The translations under genes were made by a program, and so were the position numbers. A stretch of DNA of 40,431 nucleotides, taken from the IMG/VR virus record IMGVR_UViG_3300036944_000445, positions 1 to 40,431 of that record. The stretch is one strand, 5' to 3'. Shown piece by piece: positions 2,081-38,352 of this stretch (position 1 is its first letter; every line of letters begins with the position of its first letter). The notes below the pieces were generated by a model that saw only the letters and a list, made by a program, of their open reading frames with translations, was not told where the DNA came from and ran no database searches. This DNA is from a virus.

Positions 2081-2253
2081 TCTCGTTTTCCTTCCATAAA
2101 TTCTTTGAAGTAGGCGTGTATTCGTCTGACGGCATCGGGTTTGTGCCACTTGATTGATCCCTTGATAAGCTTCAGAGTGTTTTCTCTGTCTTGCAAGGTT
2201 TCGTGAGTTCTCCATATCTCTCTGGCTCTGGCAATCTCTTCTTGAGGGTTCAT
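2077..2253 (-). CDS. small helical hypothetical protein, 58 aa
   Basis: Start taken as the ATG at 2253, which overlaps the helicase stop by four bases. The product (MNPQEEIARAREIWRTHETL at its N-terminus) is mostly charged helix with a basic middle (LIKGSIKWHKPDAVRRIHAYF). No domain recognised. Its position directly after the helicase suggests a role in replication, possibly as an accessory or loader-like factor, but this rests on context only. Confidence 0.65.
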   Translation of the reverse strand: MNPQEEIARAREIWRTHETLQDRENTLKLIKGSIKWHKPDAVRRIHAYFKEFMEGKRE

Positions 2254-3233
2254 GTCGCCAGATGGGGATAGTTGACAAACCACATGGGTCTGTCTTTGGG
2301 TTGACCAATGTACTGTTGGGCATCCCTGTGAAACCACAACTTGATGGTTGGTTCACCCTCAACCGATCCTTCGTAGTTGCGTTGTTTACGGCAAAGAAGG
2401 TAGTGGTCAGGGTCTTCAGCAGACTTGGCAAAGCTGCCTTCAGTCTTGATGTCATCCTCTTTGGACTTGTTACGCCAAACCAGCATCACGTTATCAACTT
2501 GATCGGTGATAGCACCCGAGCCTTTGTTGTCATGCTTGTCAGGCATGGAGTATTCGTTGGCTGGTTTCTTCAGGTGGTGGACAAGGTGGATGTGAATGTC
2601 GTAATCACGGGCAATACTGGTCAACTCGTCAACAAAGACCTTTTGACCGTTGTAGTCGTCTTCACTCTTAACGCATTTGGCAAGGTTATCAATGAAGATG
2701 TGGTTGATGCCAAGTTCTTTGGCACAGTACCTAGCCATCCCAATAACGGTTTGGGCATCTGCTGTTCCTGTTTGGTCGTAAAGCCACATTGTTCCATCGG
2801 TCCATGTGCCAAACTGGTCGTACATATCGTCTAAAGCTTCAATGCCTTTGTCACCCTGGAACTCAGGCATGAAAGGGTTACACCCAATCCACATACGTGC
2901 CATACGCTGTAGGGTGACTGGTGGCTTCATCTCAAAAGACGCAATGCAGACCTTCTCACCTTGGCCGATCAGGGATAAGGCAATCTGGGAGGTCATCAGG
3001 GACTTACCGTGACCGTTCTGTCCTGACCACAGGGTTACTTCACCCTTTCTGAACTCAAAGTTTTCCTTGGTGTGGTCCCAGGGTAAGTAGGAAACCTTCT
3101 GGTCCTTCTTGGTTCTCAGTCTGTCTTTGATGTAATCAATGTAGTCTGATGCCTTCTTGACCTTGGTTTGGTTGTCGGTTTCTTTGAGGTACTTGGTGAA
3201 GTCAATTGTGTCTGGAGTTATTACAAGTGCCAT
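2250..3233 (-). CDS. DnaB-like replicative DNA helicase (RecA-fold ATPase)
   Basis: 327 residues with a single RecA-type ATPase core, matching the C-terminal half of DnaB-family helicases. Walker A is GQNGHGKS at 71-78, Walker B is IFIDNL at 179-184, the HLVHHLKK motif is at 216-223 and the GSGAITDQVDNVM motif at 238-250 corresponds to the conserved DnaB SGAI..AD element. The first 65 residues are too short for a DnaB N-terminal or primase domain, so priming and loading must come from elsewhere. The ATG at 3233 follows the upstream stop by one base; a longer frame to 3290 would run into that gene. It probably unwinds phage DNA together with the initiator at 3557-4213 and the host polymerase. 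Confidence 0.88.
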   Translation of the reverse strand: MALVITPDTIDFTKYLKETDNQTKVKKASDYIDYIKDRLRTKKDQKVSYLPWDHTKENFEFRKGEVTLWSGQNGHGKSLMTSQIALSLIGQGEKVCIASFEMKPPVTLQRMARMWIGCNPFMPEFQGDKGIEALDDMYDQFGTWTDGTMWLYDQTGTADAQTVIGMARYCAKELGINHIFIDNLAKCVKSEDDYNGQKVFVDELTSIARDYDIHIHLVHHLKKPANEYSMPDKHDNKGSGAITDQVDNVMLVWRNKSKEDDIKTEGSFAKSAEDPDHYLLCRKQRNYEGSVEGEPTIKLWFHRDAQQYIGQPKDRPMWFVNYPHLAT

Positions 3234-3234
3234 T

Positions 3235-3570
3235 TCATTTTCCAATGTAAGTTTGTGACCATCCGGTCTGCTTGAAGTATGGTTGTCCAAGCAAAAGAAC
3301 GGAACTGGTGATTACCCTTGCTTTGCAATCAATGAGCTTTTGGTGGATTGCCTTGGCTCTACGCTCATCAAAGCTTGTCAAGAATACTGTTAAGCCAATG
3401 ACAAACCGTAGGTCAAGGGTATGAAGGTCATCCTTGACCACACAGATGGTTGGTGAGTCATTCCACTCATGCCACTCATGGGCATTGAGGGACTTGTGGT
3501 CTTCAATGGAGATGTACTGGGGTGCTTTCCCAGACATCCGCATTTTGATCAAAGGTTCATGGCCGAGCAT
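3235..3570 (-). CDS. conserved phage hypothetical protein, 111 aa
   Basis: Begins MLGHEPLIKMRMSGKAP and contains LHTLDLRFVIGLTVFLTS and RAKAIHQKLIDCKARVI. I recognise this as a widespread but uncharacterised family of proteins found in phages and prophages of betaproteobacteria next to replication genes. No catalytic motif is evident; the pattern suggests a mixed alpha/beta fold. The ATG at 3570 is 14 bases inside the end of the initiator gene and has AAGGATG upstream. Gene order initiator, this protein, helicase suggests a replication accessory role. Confidence 0.75.
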   Translation of the reverse strand: MLGHEPLIKMRMSGKAPQYISIEDHKSLNAHEWHEWNDSPTICVVKDDLHTLDLRFVIGLTVFLTSFDERRAKAIHQKLIDCKARVITSSVLLLGQPYFKQTGWSQTYIGK

Positions 3571-4213
3571 TTGCCATCCTTTTCATTTTTTCTGCTGCTG
3601 TCATAGGAGGAGCGGCAATTTCATCTTCCCAGCGCTTACCGTTTAGCCAAGTACTGGGGTGTGGGATGTATTGGACATCCTTGTCTTTCCAGATGGTACG
3701 GGTTTGGATGCTCAGTGATCGTAGGATCTTGTCTAGCAACTCTTGGTCAACCTTAAGCTTTGCAAAGACCCGTTTGGCAAATTCTTTGTTGGTCTTCTTG
3801 GGATAGGCTTTCCAGAACGTATCGAATAAGGGATTACCCTGTCCAACAATAGTATCTGTGTTTATATATGTATTAGATGGTTGATCAGATTTAACTTCCC
3901 GATTGATCAAATTTGATGAATCGATAATTTCTACTGAATACCACTTCGTATGGTCGTAGGGGTTGGCGTTGTAGTTGCCAATTTTCATCATTCCAGCATC
4001 TTCCAAACGCTTTAAAGCTCGTTGTATTTGCTGTTGTGACGCATACGGGAAAAGTTTGGTAAAGGCCTTGGCACTGTTGTAAGTCCAATACCGCCCATCA
4101 TGTAGATGGCGACCGTTTGCTTTGTTTTTTGCTACCCACCAACGTATGTTGGCAAGCAATACTGCTTCAAGAATGCCATATTGCACGGCATCCACCGGAT
4201 CAAAGGTGTGCAT
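3557..4213 (-). CDS. winged-helix phage replication initiator (O-like/DnaD-like)
   Basis: 218 residues in two parts. Residues 1-95 look like a winged-helix DNA-binding domain (YGILEAVLLANIRWWV, then SQQQIQRALKRLEDAGMMKIGNYN), the pattern of phage replisome organisers. A polar linker at 100-128 leads to a C-terminal domain with FDTFWKAYPKKTNKEFAKRVF (130-150) and YIPHPSTWLNGKRWED (182-197), a module typical of phage O or DnaD-like replication proteins that contact the helicase. It lies two genes upstream of the helicase. GGGGTAAAACC precedes the ATG. Many such initiators bind an origin within their own gene; here a better origin candidate lies at 35.3-35.6 kb. Confidence 0.75.
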   Translation of the reverse strand: MHTFDPVDAVQYGILEAVLLANIRWWVAKNKANGRHLHDGRYWTYNSAKAFTKLFPYASQQQIQRALKRLEDAGMMKIGNYNANPYDHTKWYSVEIIDSSNLINREVKSDQPSNTYINTDTIVGQGNPLFDTFWKAYPKKTNKEFAKRVFAKLKVDQELLDKILRSLSIQTRTIWKDKDVQYIPHPSTWLNGKRWEDEIAAPPMTAAEKMKRMANARP

Positions 4214-5187: not shown

Positions 5188-5295
5188 ACGGTGAGCCTAA
5201 CAAAAAAAGATGAACAAACAACTAGGGCAAACCCCTATGTTTTATTTTAAAAATACAAGTTACAGTCACCTCCCTTGCTCAACGAAAGGAAATCA
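5188..5295. promoter_or_regulatory. divergent early control region
   Basis: The 108 bases between the leftward operon (start 5187) and the rightward operon (start 5296). It contains the perfect inverted repeat TAGGG CAAAC CCCTA at 5223-5237 followed by a very AT-rich stretch (5240-5257). No unambiguous -35/-10 pair is visible on either strand, but AT content and location make it the likely site of back-to-back early promoters with the palindrome as shared operator. Confidence 0.6.
5223..5237. promoter_or_regulatory. palindromic operator, copy 1
   Basis: TAGGG-CAAAC-CCCTA is a perfect five-base inverted repeat with a five-base core. It sits 73 bases before the ATG at 5296 and 36 bases from the leftward start at 5187. 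Two relatives occur at 35954-35968 and 38195-38211, sharing the flank CAAC on one side. A dimeric regulator of phage or host origin is the simplest reader. Confidence 0.55.
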
Positions 5296-18771: not shown

Positions 18772-19677
18772 TTAAGGATGGGTTGATTTGTATGCGTCAA
18801 ACTCAGCTTTGAGTTCTTGGATGGCAGCGGTCAGTGTGGCAACAAGGAACGATGTGTCGATGCCTTGGTACTTGGGGTTGCCCTCGGCATCCACGGCGTC
18901 TTTATCGCCTGATACGCACTGAGGAACAACTTCAGCCAGTTCATGTGCAATGAAGCCTTCACCGTCAAATCCACTAGAGTTCCATTTGTATGTGCAAGGC
19001 TTGAGCAATGCCACCTTTGCCAATGCGCCTGTCATTGGGGCAATCGAGTTTTTCAAGCGATAGTCGGATGAAGTGTTGTAAGAAGTCGATGAATCGCCAA
19101 TAACAATGCTTCCAACTTCCGTGTTGTCGTTTCTTCGGAACGAAACCATTTTTCCAGAAAAACCGCTCAGACCACGACCGTGACGCATGTAAATGCCGAT
19201 GGTGTCGGATGAGTTTGTGTGCCAGAACTGTGCAACATTTGATGACGCATCCACCTCAAGTTTTGAAGAAGTGGTTGCGCTTGTTTTTCCCAACAAAAAG
19301 TAACCGCTGGTGTCAAAGCGGCCACGTTCTGTGTCATTTGTACCAAACCGCAATGGGTGGTTTGACCTTGAGCCAACAGTAACTTCAGCAGAAGCGGATG
19401 CAAGAAGTTGACCAGTGCACGTTCCATTGCTCCAAAGAATTGAGCCAATACTTGAATTTTGAACTTGGAAATTTACACCACCAAAATTTGATGGCGAACT
19501 CGTACCAATACCCACGTTACCCGCAGATGTCACCGTCACGAGGTCGGTGGTTGTGCCGCTGTTGCCGTTGGCAAGGCGTACTGTGCCGTCAGGAGATGCC
19601 GGTTGGTACAGCGTGAAGTTTTGTGCAGCAGTACCGGATGTGCCGACCTGCACGTTCTTTGCGATTACGGTACTCAT
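18772..19677 (-). CDS. tail fibre with S74 chaperone domain, copy A, 301 aa
   Basis: The N-terminal part (1-60) is the fibre attachment region (FTLYQPASPDGTVRLANG, GNVGIGTSSP), followed by a beta-rich shaft and head. Residues 203-301 are a peptidase S74 intramolecular chaperone domain as in endosialidase tail spikes: SSDYRLKN at 203-210 has the Ser-Asp cleavage site, FIAHELAEVVP (242-252) carries the catalytic-dyad region, and DTSFLVATLTAAIQELK is the C-terminal helix. The domain trimerises the fibre and then cuts itself off. The closest relative in the window is the next gene upstream (19674-20579). Four-base overlap with it. Confidence 0.85.
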   Translation of the reverse strand: MSTVIAKNVQVGTSGTAAQNFTLYQPASPDGTVRLANGNSGTTTDLVTVTSAGNVGIGTSSPSNFGGVNFQVQNSSIGSILWSNGTCTGQLLASASAEVTVGSRSNHPLRFGTNDTERGRFDTSGYFLLGKTSATTSSKLEVDASSNVAQFWHTNSSDTIGIYMRHGRGLSGFSGKMVSFRRNDNTEVGSIVIGDSSTSYNTSSDYRLKNSIAPMTGALAKVALLKPCTYKWNSSGFDGEGFIAHELAEVVPQCVSGDKDAVDAEGNPKYQGIDTSFLVATLTAAIQELKAEFDAYKSTHP

Positions 19678-20579
19678 GCTTGTCCTTTCAGGGCGGCGAT
19701 CTCTGCGCCTTGTGCATCAACGATGGCTTTGAGTTCTTGGATGGCTGCGGTCAATGTGGCAACTAAGAAGCTGGTGTCGATGCCTTGAGGCTTGATGGAG
19801 CCGTCTTCATTGATGGCATCTTTCACCCCGGAAACAGCCGATGGGCAAACCTCTTGAAGCTCGTGTGCAACGAAGCCCTCGTCAGTTTCGCCTGTCGCTT
19901 TCCATGTGTATGTACATGGTTTGAGGGCTTGCACCTTTGCCAACGCACCCGTCATCGGGGCGATGTTTTCTTTCAGTCGGTAATCGGACGATGTGTTGAA
20001 GGATGTCGTTGTTCCGTTTGTGCTAATGCTTCCTGTGTTTGTAGCCCCAGAAAAGAAGATGACAGGGGTTGAAGAACCCGCTGCGCCAGCAATGAAAACA
20101 CCATATGTTGAGGCGTGAACTACATTTAATCGGGCAGGATTACCTGATCCTCCAATTTGCAAGTTACCGCTGGCGTCGATACGCATCCTAGTCGCACTGT
20201 TGGTTACATCATAGAACGACAAACCTGTATTACTGGTTCCAACATCACCAGCAACAATTTCAAACGTCTGACCACTAGCGCCAGTGTTTGCAATTTGAAG
20301 ACGGCTCAAAGATTGATCGGTTGTTTTAATAATCAATTTGCCTTGATTAACTTCAAGTTTTCCACCCGGCGAAGTCGTCCCAATACCCACGTTACCGCTG
20401 GCATCAACAGCCACAGAAGGTACTGGAGCAGATGCGTTTACGCTGATAGCGCCAGAGCCAGTCAGCAAAGTGCCGGTTTGGTCAGGCAGTGTCAGTGTGC
20501 GGTCCGAGTTTGTGTTGGGAGCAGCAATCGTCAGGGTTCCAGTACCTGATGCGTTGCCTTGAATTTTTACGAGACTCAT
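19674..20579 (-). CDS. tail fibre with S74 chaperone domain, copy B, 301 aa
   Basis: Start at the ATG at 20579 (MSLVKIQGNASGTGTLTI) with AGGAACACAACC before it; the frame to 20621 has no such signal. The N-terminal anchor (TIAAPNTNSDRTLTLPDQTG) is the form common in phage fibres with S74 domains. The chaperone domain starts at SSDYRLKEN (197-205), with HELQEV at 239-244 and a C-terminal helix nearly identical to copy A (DTSFLVATLTAAIQELKA). Its middle differs from copies A and C, so the genes share ends but not receptor-binding cores, as expected after recombination. Confidence 0.85.
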   Translation of the reverse strand: MSLVKIQGNASGTGTLTIAAPNTNSDRTLTLPDQTGTLLTGSGAISVNASAPVPSVAVDASGNVGIGTTSPGGKLEVNQGKLIIKTTDQSLSRLQIANTGASGQTFEIVAGDVGTSNTGLSFYDVTNSATRMRIDASGNLQIGGSGNPARLNVVHASTYGVFIAGAAGSSTPVIFFSGATNTGSISTNGTTTSFNTSSDYRLKENIAPMTGALAKVQALKPCTYTWKATGETDEGFVAHELQEVCPSAVSGVKDAINEDGSIKPQGIDTSFLVATLTAAIQELKAIVDAQGAEIAALKGQA

Positions 20580-20604
20580 GGTTGTGTTCCTGTTTAAATT
20601 GATT

Positions 20605-21084
20605 TTATTCTTGGAATGCAAAGTCGCCGTGATATTTCGATCTTGCTTCTTTTGCCACCAAGTCGGCTAGTTCCAAGTCTTCAAAATTCCCAATAAACTT
20701 GCTTTTTCCTTTTATTCTGATGTGAACAGAATATTTGTTCCTGCCTTCTTGTTTTGTGACATTTCTGCACCCGCTTCTTGCCCCACGTTTAGACTGACTG
20801 TTTAGCCCATTTTTACTAGCATCTGCCGCCCGTAAGTTTTCAATGCTGTTGTTTCTTGTATTTCTGTCTGCATGATCCACCAGCTTTGGCAGATCTCCGT
20901 GGTGCATAAGATAAATTATGCGATGAGCAAGATACTGTTTATTTCCAACAGTGACTTTTATGTACCCCGGACTGTCTTGACACCCTGCTTCTTTGCCATT
21001 AAGCGATGGTCGCTTGGAGTTTTTCCAAAGTAACTTTCCGTCCCTGTATTCAAAGAGATGGTTGGCTTGATCTTGGGTAATCAT
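20605..21084 (-). CDS. HNH homing endonuclease with AP2-like C-terminus, 159 aa
   Basis: Free-standing intronless homing endonuclease. Residues 53-85 form the HNH core: AHRIIYLMHHG then LVDHADRNTRNNSIENLR, with His71 and the Asn residues in the expected places. The C-terminal part (100-155) resembles an AP2-type DNA-binding domain (NKYSVHIRIKGKSKFIGNFE). It is inserted between two S74 fibre genes and overlaps fibre copy C by four bases. Such enzymes spread by cutting homologous loci in co-infecting phages and can drive exchange of nearby fibre genes. Confidence 0.88.
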   Translation of the reverse strand: MITQDQANHLFEYRDGKLLWKNSKRPSLNGKEAGCQDSPGYIKVTVGNKQYLAHRIIYLMHHGDLPKLVDHADRNTRNNSIENLRAADASKNGLNSQSKRGARSGCRNVTKQEGRNKYSVHIRIKGKSKFIGNFEDLELADLVAKEARSKYHGDFAFQE

Positions 21085-22130
21085 GGCTGGCTCTCTAAGG
21101 CTTCAACTCGGGCGGTCAAAGCGGTGATGATGGCTTGCTGTTCTTGGATTGCGGCGGTCAAAAGAGGAACCAATTTCGACTGGTCAACCATTTGGTAGTT
21201 TGGCGTAACGCCGTCACTGCACATGGCGTCTTTTTCACCACTCACGGACTCTGGAACAACCTCGTCTAACTCGTGAGCAATAAACCCAGAAACCACACCA
21301 ACTTCAGGCGAAACTTTCCAAGTAAAAGTTACAGGGCGCAAGGTCAAAAGTTTGGACAATGCACCACTCATGTTGGTCACGTTGTCTTTCAAACGATAGT
21401 CTGAGCCACTGTTGTATTGAGTTGAGTTCCCGCTTGATCCAATAAATCCAACACGGGCTGACTGGCTTGAGTTATAAAAACTCATTAACGTGTTTGGAGA
21501 ACCCGTATTGTAAACAGCGCATTGACCCGATAGTTGAGTTATAGCCCCAGCTGTAACGTCAAAAGTAGAAGTCGTACCCACCAGCCAATTGCCGCCAGAT
21601 GTGATGCGGGCACGTTCGGAGTTGTTTGTTCTCAAAAGTATGTTTGACGCAGAAGCCGCCGCGATACCCAAATCGCCGGTAGACTGAAAAACTGTGTCTG
21701 TTGTATTTGAGCCATTCAATCGCAAACTATTGAAATAGCCGTTACCCCGAACATCAAGCGGGCCTTGAGGAGAACTCGTCCCAATACCAAAGTTGCCGCT
21801 GGAGTCGATATAAGCCTTGTTTGAAAAGCTCATCAGGCCCGCATAAGTAACCCGGATATAGCCAGTCTCTGTTGTAACAGGGTTGTTTGTAAATTGAATG
21901 GCCCCAGCCTGCGCAGTGGCGTTTCCACGAACCCGAATGGCGTAACCAGCGGTAGTGTCTGCGGATGCAACTTCCAAGCGATAGCCGGGATCAGTTGCAC
22001 CAACGCCCACGTTGCCGCCAGTCGTGGTGACCAGCGTGTTCGCGGGGGTTGTGTCGGCAAAGACTATGCCATCGCCTGTGTAGCCACCATCGTTGGTGAT
22101 ACCTGTTGTCCCATTAAGCGTAATCGTCAT
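21081..22130 (-). CDS. tail fibre with S74 chaperone domain, copy C, 349 aa
   Basis: The most diverged of the three S74 fibres. N-terminus MTITLNGTTGITNDGGYTGD leads to repeats of GN(V/F)G(V/I)G motifs at 39-44 and 112-117, a beta-rich body, and an S74 domain from GSDYRLKDN (242-250) with FIAHELDEVVPESVSGEKDA and a long C-terminal helix (LLTAAIQEQQAIITALTARV). The cleavage-site Ser-Asp is present. It is followed by the HNH gene with a four-base overlap and preceded by the collagen-like fibre. Probably a homotrimeric receptor-binding fibre. Confidence 0.85.
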   Translation of the reverse strand: MTITLNGTTGITNDGGYTGDGIVFADTTPANTLVTTTGGNVGVGATDPGYRLEVASADTTAGYAIRVRGNATAQAGAIQFTNNPVTTETGYIRVTYAGLMSFSNKAYIDSSGNFGIGTSSPQGPLDVRGNGYFNSLRLNGSNTTDTVFQSTGDLGIAAASASNILLRTNNSERARITSGGNWLVGTTSTFDVTAGAITQLSGQCAVYNTGSPNTLMSFYNSSQSARVGFIGSSGNSTQYNSGSDYRLKDNVTNMSGALSKLLTLRPVTFTWKVSPEVGVVSGFIAHELDEVVPESVSGEKDAMCSDGVTPNYQMVDQSKLVPLLTAAIQEQQAIITALTARVEALESQP

Positions 22131-31257: not shown

Positions 31258-32850
31258 CTATATCCTTTGCACCTTGCCATCAACAGGAGTTGGACGGCGA
31301 TATTGGAAGTTGTTGGTCCGACTGACCATAGATTCCCCGTGACCTTGAATTAACGCCAAGATGCCAATACGGGCTGAGTCAATGTGATCGTCTGGATCAC
31401 TAAATCTGCCAGCATCATCAATAGCGTAATTTCTAGCCTCGTCAAGGAAATCCACACACGATTCGTTGATCATCAGTGTGCCACGCTCCATTCCCATCCG
31501 CATTATATTGATTCCGTAGGACTTATGGTTGGTTACCTTGCCTTGGTCGTTCACAGGGTTCAATATAGCACCGGGAATACAGTTTAGGCCATAGTTATCC
31601 TCAAACACCTCCCGAACCGACTGTTCAGTCAAGGTATACCGACCAGCTTGGGTGGCATCATGCGGCAAAGCAATCGGAGTGCCCTTGGATTCCCTGTCCA
31701 TCAAATAATGGACGTATTCATCAGGAGTTTCGCCCTGGGGGATCTTAATCTGGCGGTGCAGGTAGATAATTTCTTCCACAGGATTGCGGAAAAAGAAGCT
31801 GATCACCGTTGGGTCATTCCTGATACCCAAGTCAAAGGAAATCAAACGCTCCATCTTTGGATCGTTCTTCAGATCAACATCAATTGACTTGTATGTCGGC
31901 CAATTAAGGATTGGGAACACCACACCCTTGCCAACCAGCGGAATACCCTTCATACGGCAATCACGCTCCCAAGGCATAAAGTCTCGGGACAACTGGTCAC
32001 GCTCTTCTTGGCTAAAAAACTTCTCACCCCATTCGTTTTCGTAGGGGATGTCATCCCAGGTCACTCGGACATGGGTGTAGCCATCAATCTTGTCCCAGAA
32101 CTTACGCACAAGTCCTGACATACCCTTGAGCGGGGTAAATGAACACATGACCTGCCCATTTCGCTGTGCTGTTCGCACAACAAGCTCTGAGAAAATCTCG
32201 TCTGGTGGCTGTTCATCCAAGACAACAAGGTCAAGCTCAAAACCCTGCAAGTGACGCACTTGTTGGGTGTAGTTTGAGAAATACAGTTTTGATTTGCCAC
32301 CGGAACTATGCCAAACTTCAATAGACAGGACGTTGGCCCCATCTGTTCGGTATGACTTCTCGTCAATACACTCAAGCGGGATAGAGCCTGTTCCTAATTT
32401 GTACGATTGCTTGATGTCATCACATCCAAGCAGTTTGCTTTGCAGTGTCTTAGCCACCTGCTCCCAAGATTCACCAGAACACATGGCAATGATGGGTTTG
32501 TCCCACCTTCTGCCTTTCCAGTTCTTGGGGTATCTGCCTGTCAAGTGGTAGGCAGTCTCGTAGGTTGAGGCGATTGTCTTACCGGCACGGTTGGCAGCAA
32601 TCATTCCTCTACGGGAGAAGTGAGCGCCAGTCTCAAAGAACTCAGTTTGGTACTTGAATGGCCGAAACCACTTCAAGGTATTGAACTGCATATCCTTTGC
32701 AATGACATCCATTGCGCCCTTCATCTTGCGGAGTTGGTCAGCATCAAGGTGCTTGATTGCAGCCTTGCCACCAGCCAACTTCACTAGATGCTTTAAAGCC
32801 CGATCCTTGTAGATGGGCAGTATGTAATCACTGGCTTCACTTTTTGCCAT
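31258..32850 (-). CDS. terL: terminase large subunit
   Basis: The packaging ATPase and nuclease. Residues numbered from the ATG at 32850: Walker A AANRAGKT at 85-92, Walker B LVVLDE at 208-213, coupling motif SFTP (237-240). The nuclease domain has acidic residues in ISFDLGIRNDPT (337-348), PHDAT (396-400) and PDDHIDSAR (486-494), the RNase H-like triad arrangement of Terminase_6-type enzymes. At 530 residues the length is normal. An alternative GTG start at 32859 adds three residues. It overlaps the 62-residue upstream gene by 14 bases. The packaging strategy cannot be read from this. Confidence 0.93.
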   Translation of the reverse strand: MAKSEASDYILPIYKDRALKHLVKLAGGKAAIKHLDADQLRKMKGAMDVIAKDMQFNTLKWFRPFKYQTEFFETGAHFSRRGMIAANRAGKTIASTYETAYHLTGRYPKNWKGRRWDKPIIAMCSGESWEQVAKTLQSKLLGCDDIKQSYKLGTGSIPLECIDEKSYRTDGANVLSIEVWHSSGGKSKLYFSNYTQQVRHLQGFELDLVVLDEQPPDEIFSELVVRTAQRNGQVMCSFTPLKGMSGLVRKFWDKIDGYTHVRVTWDDIPYENEWGEKFFSQEERDQLSRDFMPWERDCRMKGIPLVGKGVVFPILNWPTYKSIDVDLKNDPKMERLISFDLGIRNDPTVISFFFRNPVEEIIYLHRQIKIPQGETPDEYVHYLMDRESKGTPIALPHDATQAGRYTLTEQSVREVFEDNYGLNCIPGAILNPVNDQGKVTNHKSYGINIMRMGMERGTLMINESCVDFLDEARNYAIDDAGRFSDPDDHIDSARIGILALIQGHGESMVSRTNNFQYRRPTPVDGKVQRI

Positions 32851-33025
32851 ATGCGTCACGCATGGTCAGCAAGAGGTCAGCAGCAGAAGCAAGGTAGTAA
32901 ACATCTTGTGGAAGCAATGACCGATCCCCTTGGAGATCCTTTTGCAACCACTCTAATGTTTTCCTTGCACAAGCTTCTGCTTGAGCCGACAACTTTTGAC
33001 GGAAGATAGTTGAATGGTCTTCCAT
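32837..33025 (-). CDS. small helical protein upstream of terL, 62 aa
   Basis: Start at the ATG at 33025, whose TGATG overlaps the previous stop. Helical protein (FRQKLSAQAEACARKTLEWL, DVYYLASAADLLLTMRDAYG). It lies where a small terminase often sits but is far too short for one and has no DNA-binding motif. It may be a terminase accessory. The better TerS candidate is at 34226-34717. Confidence 0.65.
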   Translation of the reverse strand: MEDHSTIFRQKLSAQAEACARKTLEWLQKDLQGDRSLLPQDVYYLASAADLLLTMRDAYGKK

Positions 33026-33666
33026 CACGCCCACGGGTTAGTGACGTTCTTCTCTGCAATGTTCATCAGGTTACGGTCAATCAAAGTCCAGATTCCGCCA
33101 CCCTTTTCACCAACACAGAACGCATACAAGCCACGGCCCTTTTCAGTAAAAGTGCCATCAGCACGGCGCAGCATGATCTCCTCTGTGCGAGGGTCAAGCC
33201 ACGAATACTTCTCGGGCTGCTTTTGACCAAACTTGTTGATGCGCTCACCAATAGCAATCTGCTCAATAGGACCAGTCACTTGGAAAGTGATCACGCCATT
33301 GTCGTACTTGCGGAAGTTGATTTGCACCTTGCGATCAGACTGAGGGTCTGTCGGGTGGGGCATGTTTGTCGCACCAAAGAAATGGACTTGCGAGCCAGTG
33401 TCAGGCAGATCTGCTGGGCGAGGAGGAAGGGTCTTCTTCTCGTCAACAGGAATCAATTCCTTACGGTCAATGTAAGGGTTCAATTCTGTCTGGAAATCAG
33501 CAGGAACCTTTTTGCCTTCCAGAGCATTACGAGCGACCATGTACTGGTCTTCTTTTGGCTTGCCTACCAAGTCCAAAGAGATGCCCGTCTTGTCATAGAC
33601 AAACTGAGCAAGGTCTTTGGCGGTTGGGAGGTCTGCCTTCAGTGCTTCAATATCATACGTTGCCAT
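33025..33666 (-). CDS. conserved phage hypothetical protein, 213 aa
   Basis: Well-structured protein starting MATYDIEALKADLPTAKDLA. Two parts: residues 1-60 are helical (FVYDKTGISLDLVGKPKEDQ, YMVARNALEGKKVPADF), and 85-213 are beta-rich with HFFGATNMPHPTDPQSDRKV, PEKYSWLDPRTEEIM and GLYAFCVGEKGGGIWTLIDR. I recognise this as a conserved unknown carried with terminase genes in several aquatic phages. The rather strict conservation I remember suggests a virion or packaging role. No catalytic motif stands out. Confidence 0.7.
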   Translation of the reverse strand: MATYDIEALKADLPTAKDLAQFVYDKTGISLDLVGKPKEDQYMVARNALEGKKVPADFQTELNPYIDRKELIPVDEKKTLPPRPADLPDTGSQVHFFGATNMPHPTDPQSDRKVQINFRKYDNGVITFQVTGPIEQIAIGERINKFGQKQPEKYSWLDPRTEEIMLRRADGTFTEKGRGLYAFCVGEKGGGIWTLIDRNLMNIAEKNVTNPWA

Positions 33667-34225: not shown

Positions 34226-34717
34226 TCAAACTTTTCTTAAAGCCGTCAAGAAGTCATCCAAAGCATCTTCAGCCGATACCTCTTCATCCTTGTTCACATT
34301 GTTCACATGCTCAATAGAGATGATAGGCGCTCTTGACGATTCAAACGGAGCCAGCTTATCAGCAATCCTGGCCTTGTCTTTGATGTCAATCTCATCAGAC
34401 TGCATAGCATCAATCAAGACCTCCATAGCCGTTTTCAATGGAGCCAAGCCTTTGGCAACCCGCTCATCGTTTAACTTGTTAAACAAAGCACCGTACTCAG
34501 TAACCCTGTTCACAATCGATTTGGGTCTGCCAATAGTTGCAGGTTCTTTGGGCATTTTTGGAAACTTCTCACCAGTAGCCAAACCCATAGCCTTCTTTTG
34601 ATCCCGCTTCATTTTCTGATACTGCTTCTTGTATTCAAGCTTTTCAGCATCAGTCAATATCGAACCTTCTGGCCGAATCTCGCCAAACAAAACATCAGCA
34701 TCTTTAGGAACTCTCAT
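34226..34717 (-). CDS. putative terminase small subunit, 163 aa
   Basis: Contains ATIGRPKSIVNRVTEYGALF (about residues 60-79) and NDERVAKGLAPLKTAMEVLI, then the helix KDKARIADKLAPFESSRAPI leading to a beta strand ending ISIEH. That last combination is typical of TerS-like and DUF5681-type phage packaging proteins, which recognise the packaging site and load TerL. N-terminal 60 residues are charged and helical (DAEKLEYKKQYQKMKRDQKK). It lies at the promoter end of the late operon. Moderate confidence, since no helix-turn-helix is obvious. Confidence 0.5.
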   Translation of the reverse strand: MRVPKDADVLFGEIRPEGSILTDAEKLEYKKQYQKMKRDQKKAMGLATGEKFPKMPKEPATIGRPKSIVNRVTEYGALFNKLNDERVAKGLAPLKTAMEVLIDAMQSDEIDIKDKARIADKLAPFESSRAPIISIEHVNNVNKDEEVSAEDALDDFLTALRKV

Positions 34718-35259
34718 TGAATACCTTTCATGGCGTCTTCTGTTCTAACCCAAGCATATGAGCCATTAACTCTAAATCCACGCTTTTTGTGAATTCTCAT
34801 AAACCCATCATGCTCACTTCGAATACTGGTCGAACAAATAACCGGAATACTCCAAGCATTTGCCCACAATATATGTTGGTCAATCATCTGATTAATTAAC
34901 CGAACTCTTTGTTTGGCAGGAAGAGTCAAATCAATATGATGAAACTTGGCGTTACTGATCTCTTCATTTGAGTAAGTCGTATACCCACCACGGTCAAACC
35001 AACAGTAAGCCAACAGCTTGTTTCCAAAGAAGTCGCCATGCTCATCCTGCCCCGCAATAGAAACATATTCACCACGACAAACAGCCAAGAACTCACGACC
35101 CTTGTCAAACAACTGATGCGTAGCAGTCAACGTCACGTTCTTACGAAACACGTTCCTGTCTCTCGTAACAATCCCATCAGCCTCAACCCCAAACACACTA
35201 TCAGCCATCTCCACAATGTCATCAACATCATGCAGCGGATGTGCAAGCGTCCATTCCAT
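34714..35259 (-). CDS. GNAT-like acyltransferase, first gene of the late operon, 181 aa
   Basis: Start set at the ATG at 35259 (MEWTLAHPLHDVDDIVEMAD), where TTGGAGATTGAC gives a good ribosome site; the open frame to 35430 would run through the DnaA boxes. The pattern fits a phage GNAT-like fold: GREFLAVCRGEYVSIAGQDE and GNKLLAYCWFDRGGY as central strands, AKFHHIDLTLPAKQRVRLIN, and a C-terminal GFMRIHKKRGFRVNGSYAW, which resembles the acyl-CoA fold end. Several P22-like phages carry such a gene near the terminase. The substrate is unknown. Confidence 0.55.
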   Translation of the reverse strand: MEWTLAHPLHDVDDIVEMADSVFGVEADGIVTRDRNVFRKNVTLTATHQLFDKGREFLAVCRGEYVSIAGQDEHGDFFGNKLLAYCWFDRGGYTTYSNEEISNAKFHHIDLTLPAKQRVRLINQMIDQHILWANAWSIPVICSTSIRSEHDGFMRIHKKRGFRVNGSYAWVRTEDAMKGIQ

Positions 35260-35347
35260 GTCAATCTCCAAGCAATACGATGCCCCCATTCTAGCAACCA
35301 TCAAAAAGTTTTGAGCAAAAAATTTTATACAGGATTTACCTCTGAAC

Positions 35348-35642
35348 TTATCCACATACATAAAACAACTTATCCACAGTACTACATCTGAAACAGGCTT
35401 ATCTTGGTAAAACCCCGTGATTTTCCGCACTTTTAAGCTTTCAGCACCGTTTATGTAATACGTTCGTTTAGATCAAGTTGCAGTTGTTAGTAGTGGTGAA
35501 AAAAGTTTTTGGAAAAAATTTGGGGATGGGTGAGTGGGCCCCCTGTTTTTCTCCAGGTTCCAGTCCTACCCCCTCCTTTATCTAGGGGGGTTAAATCCAT
35601 TTAAACGCGATTCTAGGGGGGTCTGTGGATTCCTAGGGGGGT
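35348..35642. other. candidate replication origin: two DnaA boxes and three CTAGGGGGGT iterons
   Basis: TTATCCACA, a perfect match to the DnaA box consensus, occurs at 35348-35356 and again at 35370-35378, same strand and 22 bases apart, about two helical turns. The downstream 250 bases are alternately A-rich and G-rich, and CTAGGGGGGT repeats three times (35582-35591, 35613-35622, 35633-35642). Host DnaA or the phage initiator (3557-4213) could bind here. The repeats and boxes are seen; origin function is inferred. Confidence 0.5.
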
Positions 35643-35914
35643 AGTAGCCATCTGTGCTTATTCTCTCACTGTAGAGGCTATGCTTTTGTTTGCTTGAGGG
35701 TGCCCGGTCACTTTGGGGTTTTCCAGTAGTTTGAAGTGTTTTAGTCTGTGGTGTTTCGCTGGAAATCCTTGATCTTGTTTTAGTGTCTGTCTCTCTCTGT
35801 AGGAGAGCTAAAACACCACCGGGATATCTCTCTTTTTTCTTTCGTTTTGGGCTTTGGAAAGCACCTATCCATGTAAGCATAAAAACACCCTGTCTTATAA
35901 GCTTTCCGCATATA

Positions 35915-35952
35915 CACTTGATTAAAGATTTCAAGTGAAATAGTTGATCAAC
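35915..35952. promoter_or_regulatory. inverted repeat and adjoining palindrome before operator copy 2
   Basis: CACTTGA (35915-35921) and TCAAGTG (35931-35937) are perfect seven-base arms around nine bases; GTTGATCAAC at 35943-35952 is a perfect ten-base palindrome. Both end just before the TAGGG operator, about 110-145 bases ahead of the first gene of the accessory operon. They look like extra regulator sites rather than a terminator, because no T run follows. Confidence 0.4.
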
Positions 35953-35953
35953 C

Positions 35954-35968
35954 TAGGGTAAACACCTA
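35954..35968. promoter_or_regulatory. palindromic operator, copy 2
   Basis: TAGGG-TAAAC-ACCTA, one mismatch from perfect dyad symmetry and differing from copy 1 at two positions, with the same CAAC-side and TATG-side flanks. TTGACA follows at 35980-35985 and TAAAAT at 35991-35996, too close to each other to be one promoter. It lies 91 bases before the start of the first accessory gene at 36059. Confidence 0.5.
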
Positions 35969-36058
35969 TGGTTTTTGTGTTGACAATGCATAAAATTGAG
36001 CTTGTCAGGTGCAAAGCCTGATAGCACATCAACCTAATGAAATTCAAAGGATGTCGAC

Positions 36059-37845: not shown

Positions 37846-37866
37846 AAGCCCTTCGGGGCTTTTTTG
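37846..37866 (+). terminator. intrinsic terminator of the accessory operon
   Basis: AGCCC-TTCG-GGGCT with a stable TTCG tetraloop, followed by a run of six T. Textbook Rho-independent terminator, three bases after the last stop codon. Confidence 0.9.
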
Positions 37867-38090
37867 CTTTGCTGGGTTTGATTTTTTTGGTGCTTTGCAT
37901 CAGGGCAAAGCTTTGCCTGTCGTTTTTTGGCTTGTCTTGCCTGGGTGATGGCTTTGCTTTGCCTGTCGTTTGCTGGGTGCTTTGCCTTGCTTACTGGGTT
38001 TGCTTTGCCTGATCAGGTGCTGGGTTTTGCTTTGCTTGCTGCAATCAATGGGGGTTGACTGTCTGACAGGGTTAAAAATGATCCATAAAA

Positions 38091-38107
38091 CCCGTTTAAC
38101 GGGCTTT
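38091..38107 (+). terminator. weak terminator-like hairpin
   Basis: CCCGTT-T-AACGGG, a compact stem followed by CTTTTGG. The T run is short, and AAAA precedes it on the other strand, so it could act weakly in either direction as a backup to the main terminator at 37846. Confidence 0.35.
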
Positions 38108-38194
38108 TGGTGCGATTTTCTGGGTTGCAGCTACCTGTGGTGCATCTATAGGCGATATGCGATTGTGCGCTGTTCTATGCGATTTTCCAAAATC

Positions 38195-38211
38195 TATGGG
38201 GGTTTACCCCT
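38195..38211. promoter_or_regulatory. palindromic operator-like copy 3
   Basis: On the minus strand this reads TAGGGGTAAACCCCCAT with the CAAC flank also present, matching copies 1 and 2 but with one extra base in the core. No gene starts immediately beside it in either orientation, so it may be a decoy, an origin-linked site or a remnant. Confidence 0.4.
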
Positions 38212-38352
38212 AGTTGCCCCCCTCGTTGACCCCCTTGGATCACCTTCTGGCGATGAAATTTTTCCAGAATAAAAGACCCCCCCTCCCCAAAAAATTTAGA
38301 CCTCTCTAAAAAAATCAGGCCATTTTTCAGGATTTCCCACAGCTTTTTGTCC

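Follow-up and report, generated by a model that had tools for sequence, protein, structure and literature searches.

The described systems closest to the site reported here are phage cos sites, the replication origin of phage lambda, and bacterial oriC together with DnaA-regulated promoters. A lambda-type cos (cosQ-cosN-cosB) is a single-copy, non-coding site of about 150 bp upstream of the terminase genes, in which an imperfect dyad lies near three short repeats (R3, R2 and R1) and the DNA is A-tract-containing and bend-prone. Within lambda cosB, R2 has the opposite orientation to its neighbors R3 and R1, and an IHF site separates it from R3 (PMC4669245). Pseudomonas phage PaP3 (Bruynoghevirus) is also a cos phage, whose TerS binds its 20-nt cos (PMC9611059), whereas the genome of its relative tf, a LUZ24-like phage, ends in direct terminal repeats of 186 bp (PMC3517423). 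The lambda origin has its iterons inside gene O, and oriC and DnaA-regulated promoters carry consensus R-type DnaA boxes in A-tract-rich intergenic gaps.

We analyzed an IMG/VR contig of 40,431 bases (the window), which has genes for SU10-type portal and major capsid proteins and for a Terminase_6N large terminase. A gene-free gap of 768 bp (35293 to about 36060) separates a leftward late operon, 27 kb long, from a rightward operon, and a first-pass annotation had read a block within this gap as a host-DnaA-assisted origin with two DnaA boxes and three iterons. This block resembles a lambda-type cos in its size and non-coding character, in occurring once and upstream of the terminase genes, in its imperfect dyad (GAGnGGGCCCnCnC) near three short repeats, and in its A-tract DNA, but there is no sequence similarity between the two. 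It also differs from cosB in having three direct repeats after one inverted box, rather than an inverted R2, and in having these repeats on its far side as seen from the terminase genes. The PaP3 TerL is distantly related to that of the window (about 30% identity for the Bruynoghevirus group), and the PaP3 genome as deposited ends about 2 kb upstream of its terS-terL-portal operon, on the same side as the conserved core described below. Like that core, the PaP3 cos has a GC-rich GGCCCC (GCCGGCCCCTTTCCGCGTTA); direct comparison of the PaP3 genome ends with the block yielded only this short resemblance, which is a lead only, and no alignable DNA. The closest cultured terminases (about 30% identity) come from cos (PaP3) or direct-terminal-repeat (tf) phages in which the genome end is upstream of terS-terL.

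Coordinates of the features discussed, in window numbering
Feature	Position	Strand	Remarks
Replication initiator (winged-helix/primosomal type)	3557..4213	-	Relatives' versions carry iterons in the linker
Two iteron-like AAATYTGATCAAYC copies, initiator-gene linker	3879..3914	-	22 bp apart; candidate in-gene origin, weak alone
Large terminase (Terminase_6N)	31258..32859	-	Belongs to the module that co-occurs with the core
Conserved 163-aa protein	34226..34717	-	Best small-terminase candidate, by position only
Late operon gene 1	34714..35292	-	192 aa; no family match; homologue in 21/21 relatives
Second A-tract module copy (82%)	35303..35324	+	Directly precedes late operon gene 1; also kept in relatives; overlooked in the first-pass annotation
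DnaA box 1 TTATCCACA	35348..35356	+	Exact match; enriched in relatives
DnaA box 2 TTATCCACA	35370..35378	+	22 bp from box 1, start to start
Core, A-tract half AAAAGTTTTTGGAAAAAATTT	35501..35521	+	From alignments and per-column information
Core, G/C half GGGGATGGGTGAGTGGGCCCCC	35522..35543	+	Imperfect dyad GAGnGGGCCCnCnC lies within it; occurs once, in constant orientation to the late operon
Second conserved box CCAGTCCTACCCCCT	35560..35574	+	Overlooked in the first-pass annotation
Repeat 1 CTAGGGGGGT	35582..35591	+	Exact; inverted relative to the CTACCCCC box
Repeat 2 CTAGGGGGGT	35613..35622	+	Exact
Repeat 3 CTAGGGGGGT	35633..35642	+	Exact

The best-conserved part of the block is neither the DnaA boxes nor the CTAGGGGGGT repeats. 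We collected relatives through the neighboring gene, the core pattern and TerL, and compared 20 near-full contigs and the public circular genome MW202484. Alignments of the relatives and their per-column information define a 43-bp core (35501-35543), previously overlooked, with the consensus AAAAGTTTTTGtAaAAATTTtGGGaAtGGGkGAgtGGGCCCCC. This core was found in 81 distinct contigs of the phage group in addition to MW202484. It is present in all full-length relatives examined, in one copy each where copies were counted, and its orientation relative to the late operon is constant. It lies between 8 and 1476 bp from the first late gene, with additional sequence in the interval. After the core comes a (CCAGyC)CTACCCCC box, with 22-24 nt to TACCCC in 72 of 80 contigs. 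An A-tract module, AAAAAGTTTT...AAAAATTT, occurs twice, within the core (about 35500-35521) and again at 35303-35324, where the second copy possibly marks the late promoter region. The core was absent from the 84,980 bacterial and archaeal genomes searched, and in the phage collection only MW202484 contained similar DNA. At the block we found no Rfam match, no unusual fold (z -0.29), no tRNA and no intrinsic terminator, and a long mechanical ORF in the gap (35578-35934, minus strand) has no homologue in 21 relatives. Judged by these comparisons, the block is a real and, we infer, functional single-copy cis element that is shared across the phage group and has host DnaA sites.

Other non-coding signals lie around the same region. 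An operator-like motif, CTAGGGNAAACNCCTATG, is shared by positions 5222-5239 and 35953-35970, one before each rightward operon, and motifs resembling it also occur in relatives' contig ends (for example L255 and L232). A second gene-free stretch, at 37860-38240, contains short repeated words (GGCTTTGCTTTGCCTG) right after a terminator-like hairpin (AAGCCCTTCGGGGCTTTTTTG); relatives have comparable repeat-rich stretches roughly +1.6 to +3.2 kb from the core, but the words differ from one relative to another.

The three exact CTAGGGGGGT repeats are present in the gap as originally described. Their starts are spaced 31 and then 20 bp apart, and allowing up to one mismatch adds one further copy in the window, a count that is reached in 3/100 shuffles. 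Spacings of 20-21 and 31-32 bp hold in the window's subclade and vary in the wider group. In 46 of 72 relatives, plus-strand G-tracts of six or more lie within 160 bp after the core, against a background of 0.0044 per 110 bp, and the three CTAGGGGGGT copies are the subclade's version of this feature. Across the group, the core and the CTACCCCC box are accompanied by one to three such inverted G-tract repeats. A replication initiator and a DnaB-like helicase (2250-3290) of the phage's own, both claimed in the first-pass annotation, are confirmed, and no polymerase was found among the window ORFs scanned, again as claimed. The interpretation of the repeats as iterons did not survive comparison with sister phages. 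In the closest relative, G001 (IMGVR 3300047564_001471), the intergenic block, repeats included, is nearly identical to that of the window. The initiators of the two phages share a C-terminal part (86/93 identical), whereas their N-terminal DNA-binding halves gave no BLAST hit at E<=10. Because the repeats remain nearly identical while the DNA-binding half of the G001 initiator is unrelated, the iteron reading fails; the block is decoupled from the initiator. The initiator genes themselves (3557-4213; also L153:4443-5099) are chimeric, with the DNA-binding half and the linker repeats exchanged, and between the window and G001 the C-terminal part is 92% identical despite this exchange.

The same comparison bears on where replication starts. 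The linker of the G001 initiator gene carries four copies of AGCCAGAATCG, spaced 22, 23 and 32, an arrangement that 0/60 codon shuffles reach; weaker three-copy iterons in the G014 and G009 linkers are reached in 7/60 and 4/60 shuffles. These repeats, 22-32 bp apart in an initiator-gene linker, recall the lambda origin most clearly in G001. The window differs in having two degenerate AAATYTGATCAAYC copies only, not significant alone, whose position matches the linker iterons of the relatives; the candidate in-gene origin would lie there, not at the block. The cumulative GC-skew minimum did not fall at the block either: in 22 genomes it lay mostly 7-11 kb to the right of the core, near the replication genes, with transcription as a confounder. 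Because relatives' initiator genes carry iterons, the skew minimum lies near the replication genes and the core follows the packaging module, a lambda-like position inside the initiator gene is the more likely site of the origin, and the earlier placement of the origin away from that gene is probably wrong.

The DnaA boxes have fared better. Both exact boxes, 22 bp apart, are as first described; each is embedded in a 12-nt exact repeat, AACTTATCCACA, and the relative G002/L085 has an identical pair at identical spacing. The 40-kb window, where shuffling predicts 6.7 matches to TTWTNCACA, has none besides these two; what is unusual is their clustering, not their number. Among 21 relatives, 11 of the 20 exact TTATCCACA copies lie within 500 bp of the core, compared with a mean of 0.23 for permuted control 9-mers. 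Four of these controls also reach 11: three match the core (CCCAAATTT, TCCCAAATT and TTCCCAAAT) and the fourth, CATTCCATA, resembles the beginning of late operon gene 1, so that their counts seemingly derive from other conserved sequence. In 78 non-redundant relatives, 39 exact boxes fall in the 86 kb around the core (0.94 expected) and 12 in 1.1 Mb elsewhere, an approximately 41-fold enrichment within 600 bp of the core. Most one-mismatch variants are not enriched there. Only TTATGCACA (5 vs 0.55) and TTATACACA (3 vs 0.55) are mildly so, and both are still TTATNCACA-type boxes. Box offsets from the core are many, ranging from -492 to +558 on either side with no fixed distance, and in 47 of the 78 relatives no exact box comes within 600 bp of it. 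The block thus shares consensus R-type boxes and an A-tract-rich gap with oriC and DnaA-regulated promoters, but its boxes number one to three, vary in position and are absent in most relatives, and it lacks a fixed spacing between box and melting site such as oriC would have. Because of the enrichment around the core, host DnaA very probably binds at the block, in what is probably an accessory role. Of the host-DnaA-assisted origin first proposed, the involvement of DnaA is well supported and the origin with iterons is not.

It is the terminase and structural module, not the replication module, that the core accompanies. Late-module proteins occur in 21/21 relatives at 67-90% identity, whereas initiator homologues occur in 7/21 and helicase homologues in 7/21, other relatives carrying different primosomal-type proteins. 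The core sits upstream of terminase and portal. A small terminase was not found by PHROGs, Pfam, PDB sequence or PaP3/Lyrsu01 profile comparison; the positional candidate in the table has no family match, and its AlphaFold model, which is helical, is of low confidence (pLDDT 62). Among 80 TerL-anchored contigs, about 7 have an end no more than 100 bp from the core, where about 0.8 would be expected. Because these ends fall at varying bases and relatives have a second hot spot of contig ends, at 33331-33551, 500-700 bp upstream of TerL and without special features, the pile-up is weak support; sequencing dropout at the G/C tracts could have caused it. The second hot spot falls inside a conserved coding gene for a 213-aa protein of unassigned function. 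The assemblies of several relatives are circular and closed at places other than the core, which fits concatemers or headful packaging without pointing to the core. Fixed terminal repeats were rejected: the k-mer-sized end overlaps of several relatives look like assembly circles, and their positions differ. Elsewhere in the window, three paralogous tail-fiber genes (18772-22130) each match phrog_18345, two of them separated by an HNH endonuclease gene.

Several explanations of the block have to be set against these data. Chance or an assembly artefact might be suspected, since the motifs are short and the G tracts of low complexity, but this is refuted by conservation, with the core kept throughout the contigs and in MW202484 and the boxes far above expectation; we give it practically no credence. 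The original model, an origin of the phage's own with the CTAGGGGGGT repeats as initiator-bound iterons, drew its appeal from a gene-free gap in which three spaced repeats stand next to DnaA boxes. That model is largely refuted already, by the same repeats accompanying initiators with unrelated DNA-binding halves, by the four iterons inside the G001 initiator gene, and by initiator homologues in only a third of the relatives that all have the core, and we regard it as very improbable. An origin dependent on host DnaA rather than on the phage initiator would account for more. DnaA would bind the boxes, the A-tract core would melt, and a phage primosomal protein would load the DnaB-like helicase; the interchangeable phage 'initiators' would then be helicase loaders, not origin binders. 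The enrichment of exact boxes in many placements, pairs included, is consistent with such an origin, as are the A-tract in the core, the repeat spacings of 20-21 and 31-32 bp, and the match of several relatives' initiators to 'primosomal protein' families. Yet most relatives lack a nearby exact box, the boxes keep no fixed distance, the GC-skew minimum usually lies at +7 to +11 kb, relatives have in-gene iterons, and the core co-travels with packaging genes, all of which make this origin unlikely.

Late-gene control is the other serious alternative. A single late promoter or antiterminator-utilisation site (lambda pR'/Q-like) might govern the leftward operon under additional regulation by DnaA, and a core that occurs once, keeps its orientation, precedes a single long late operon, is inherited together with the late genes and is echoed by an A-tract module beside the first of them would suit that role. 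But no sigma-70-like promoter was found in the core in the leftward orientation, no Q-like gene was recognized, and 43 bp plus a box spaced at 22-24 nt is long for a single operator. Moreover, because the distance to the first late gene drifts so widely, with sequence inserted, the core is unlike a promoter element of that gene, and we consider late-gene control doubtful.

Terminase recognition fits best, because the site is inherited with the terminase and structural genes and located upstream of them, in an orientation that is constant and at a spacing that is free to change. We therefore put forward the block, tentatively and as something plausible rather than probable, as a candidate compound cis-acting site for terminase recognition, of a cos/pac-like kind, that borders the packaging/structural module on its upstream side. 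The core and its C/G-tract array would be where the phage terminase recognizes concatemeric DNA and starts packaging, in a cos- or pac-like manner, with the small subunit encoded among the first late genes. The DnaA boxes would provide an accessory host-protein input, for example by tuning the flanking divergent promoters or the local DNA architecture, and the origin used by the phage initiator would lie inside the initiator gene, lambda-style. A packaging site by itself leaves the enrichment of DnaA boxes unexplained. It is conceivable, although we think it unlikely, that the core is instead a switch responding to host DnaA, or a genuine DnaA-driven origin, and that it is inherited along with the packaging module and not with a phage initiator. 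If so, the replication state of the host would be coupled to phage replication or packaging, and DnaA boxes would have come and gone repeatedly around a core that stayed in place.

Overall, the origin-like look of DnaA boxes and iterons can mislead when the repeats fail to co-vary with the initiator. What emerges is a group-wide, near-invariant non-coding element that is now defined for a large uncultured phage lineage, and through its core the packaging start or the origin can be sought directly in phages with SU10-type portal and capsid proteins. The box statistics show, in addition, that phages can retain host DnaA sites near such an element.
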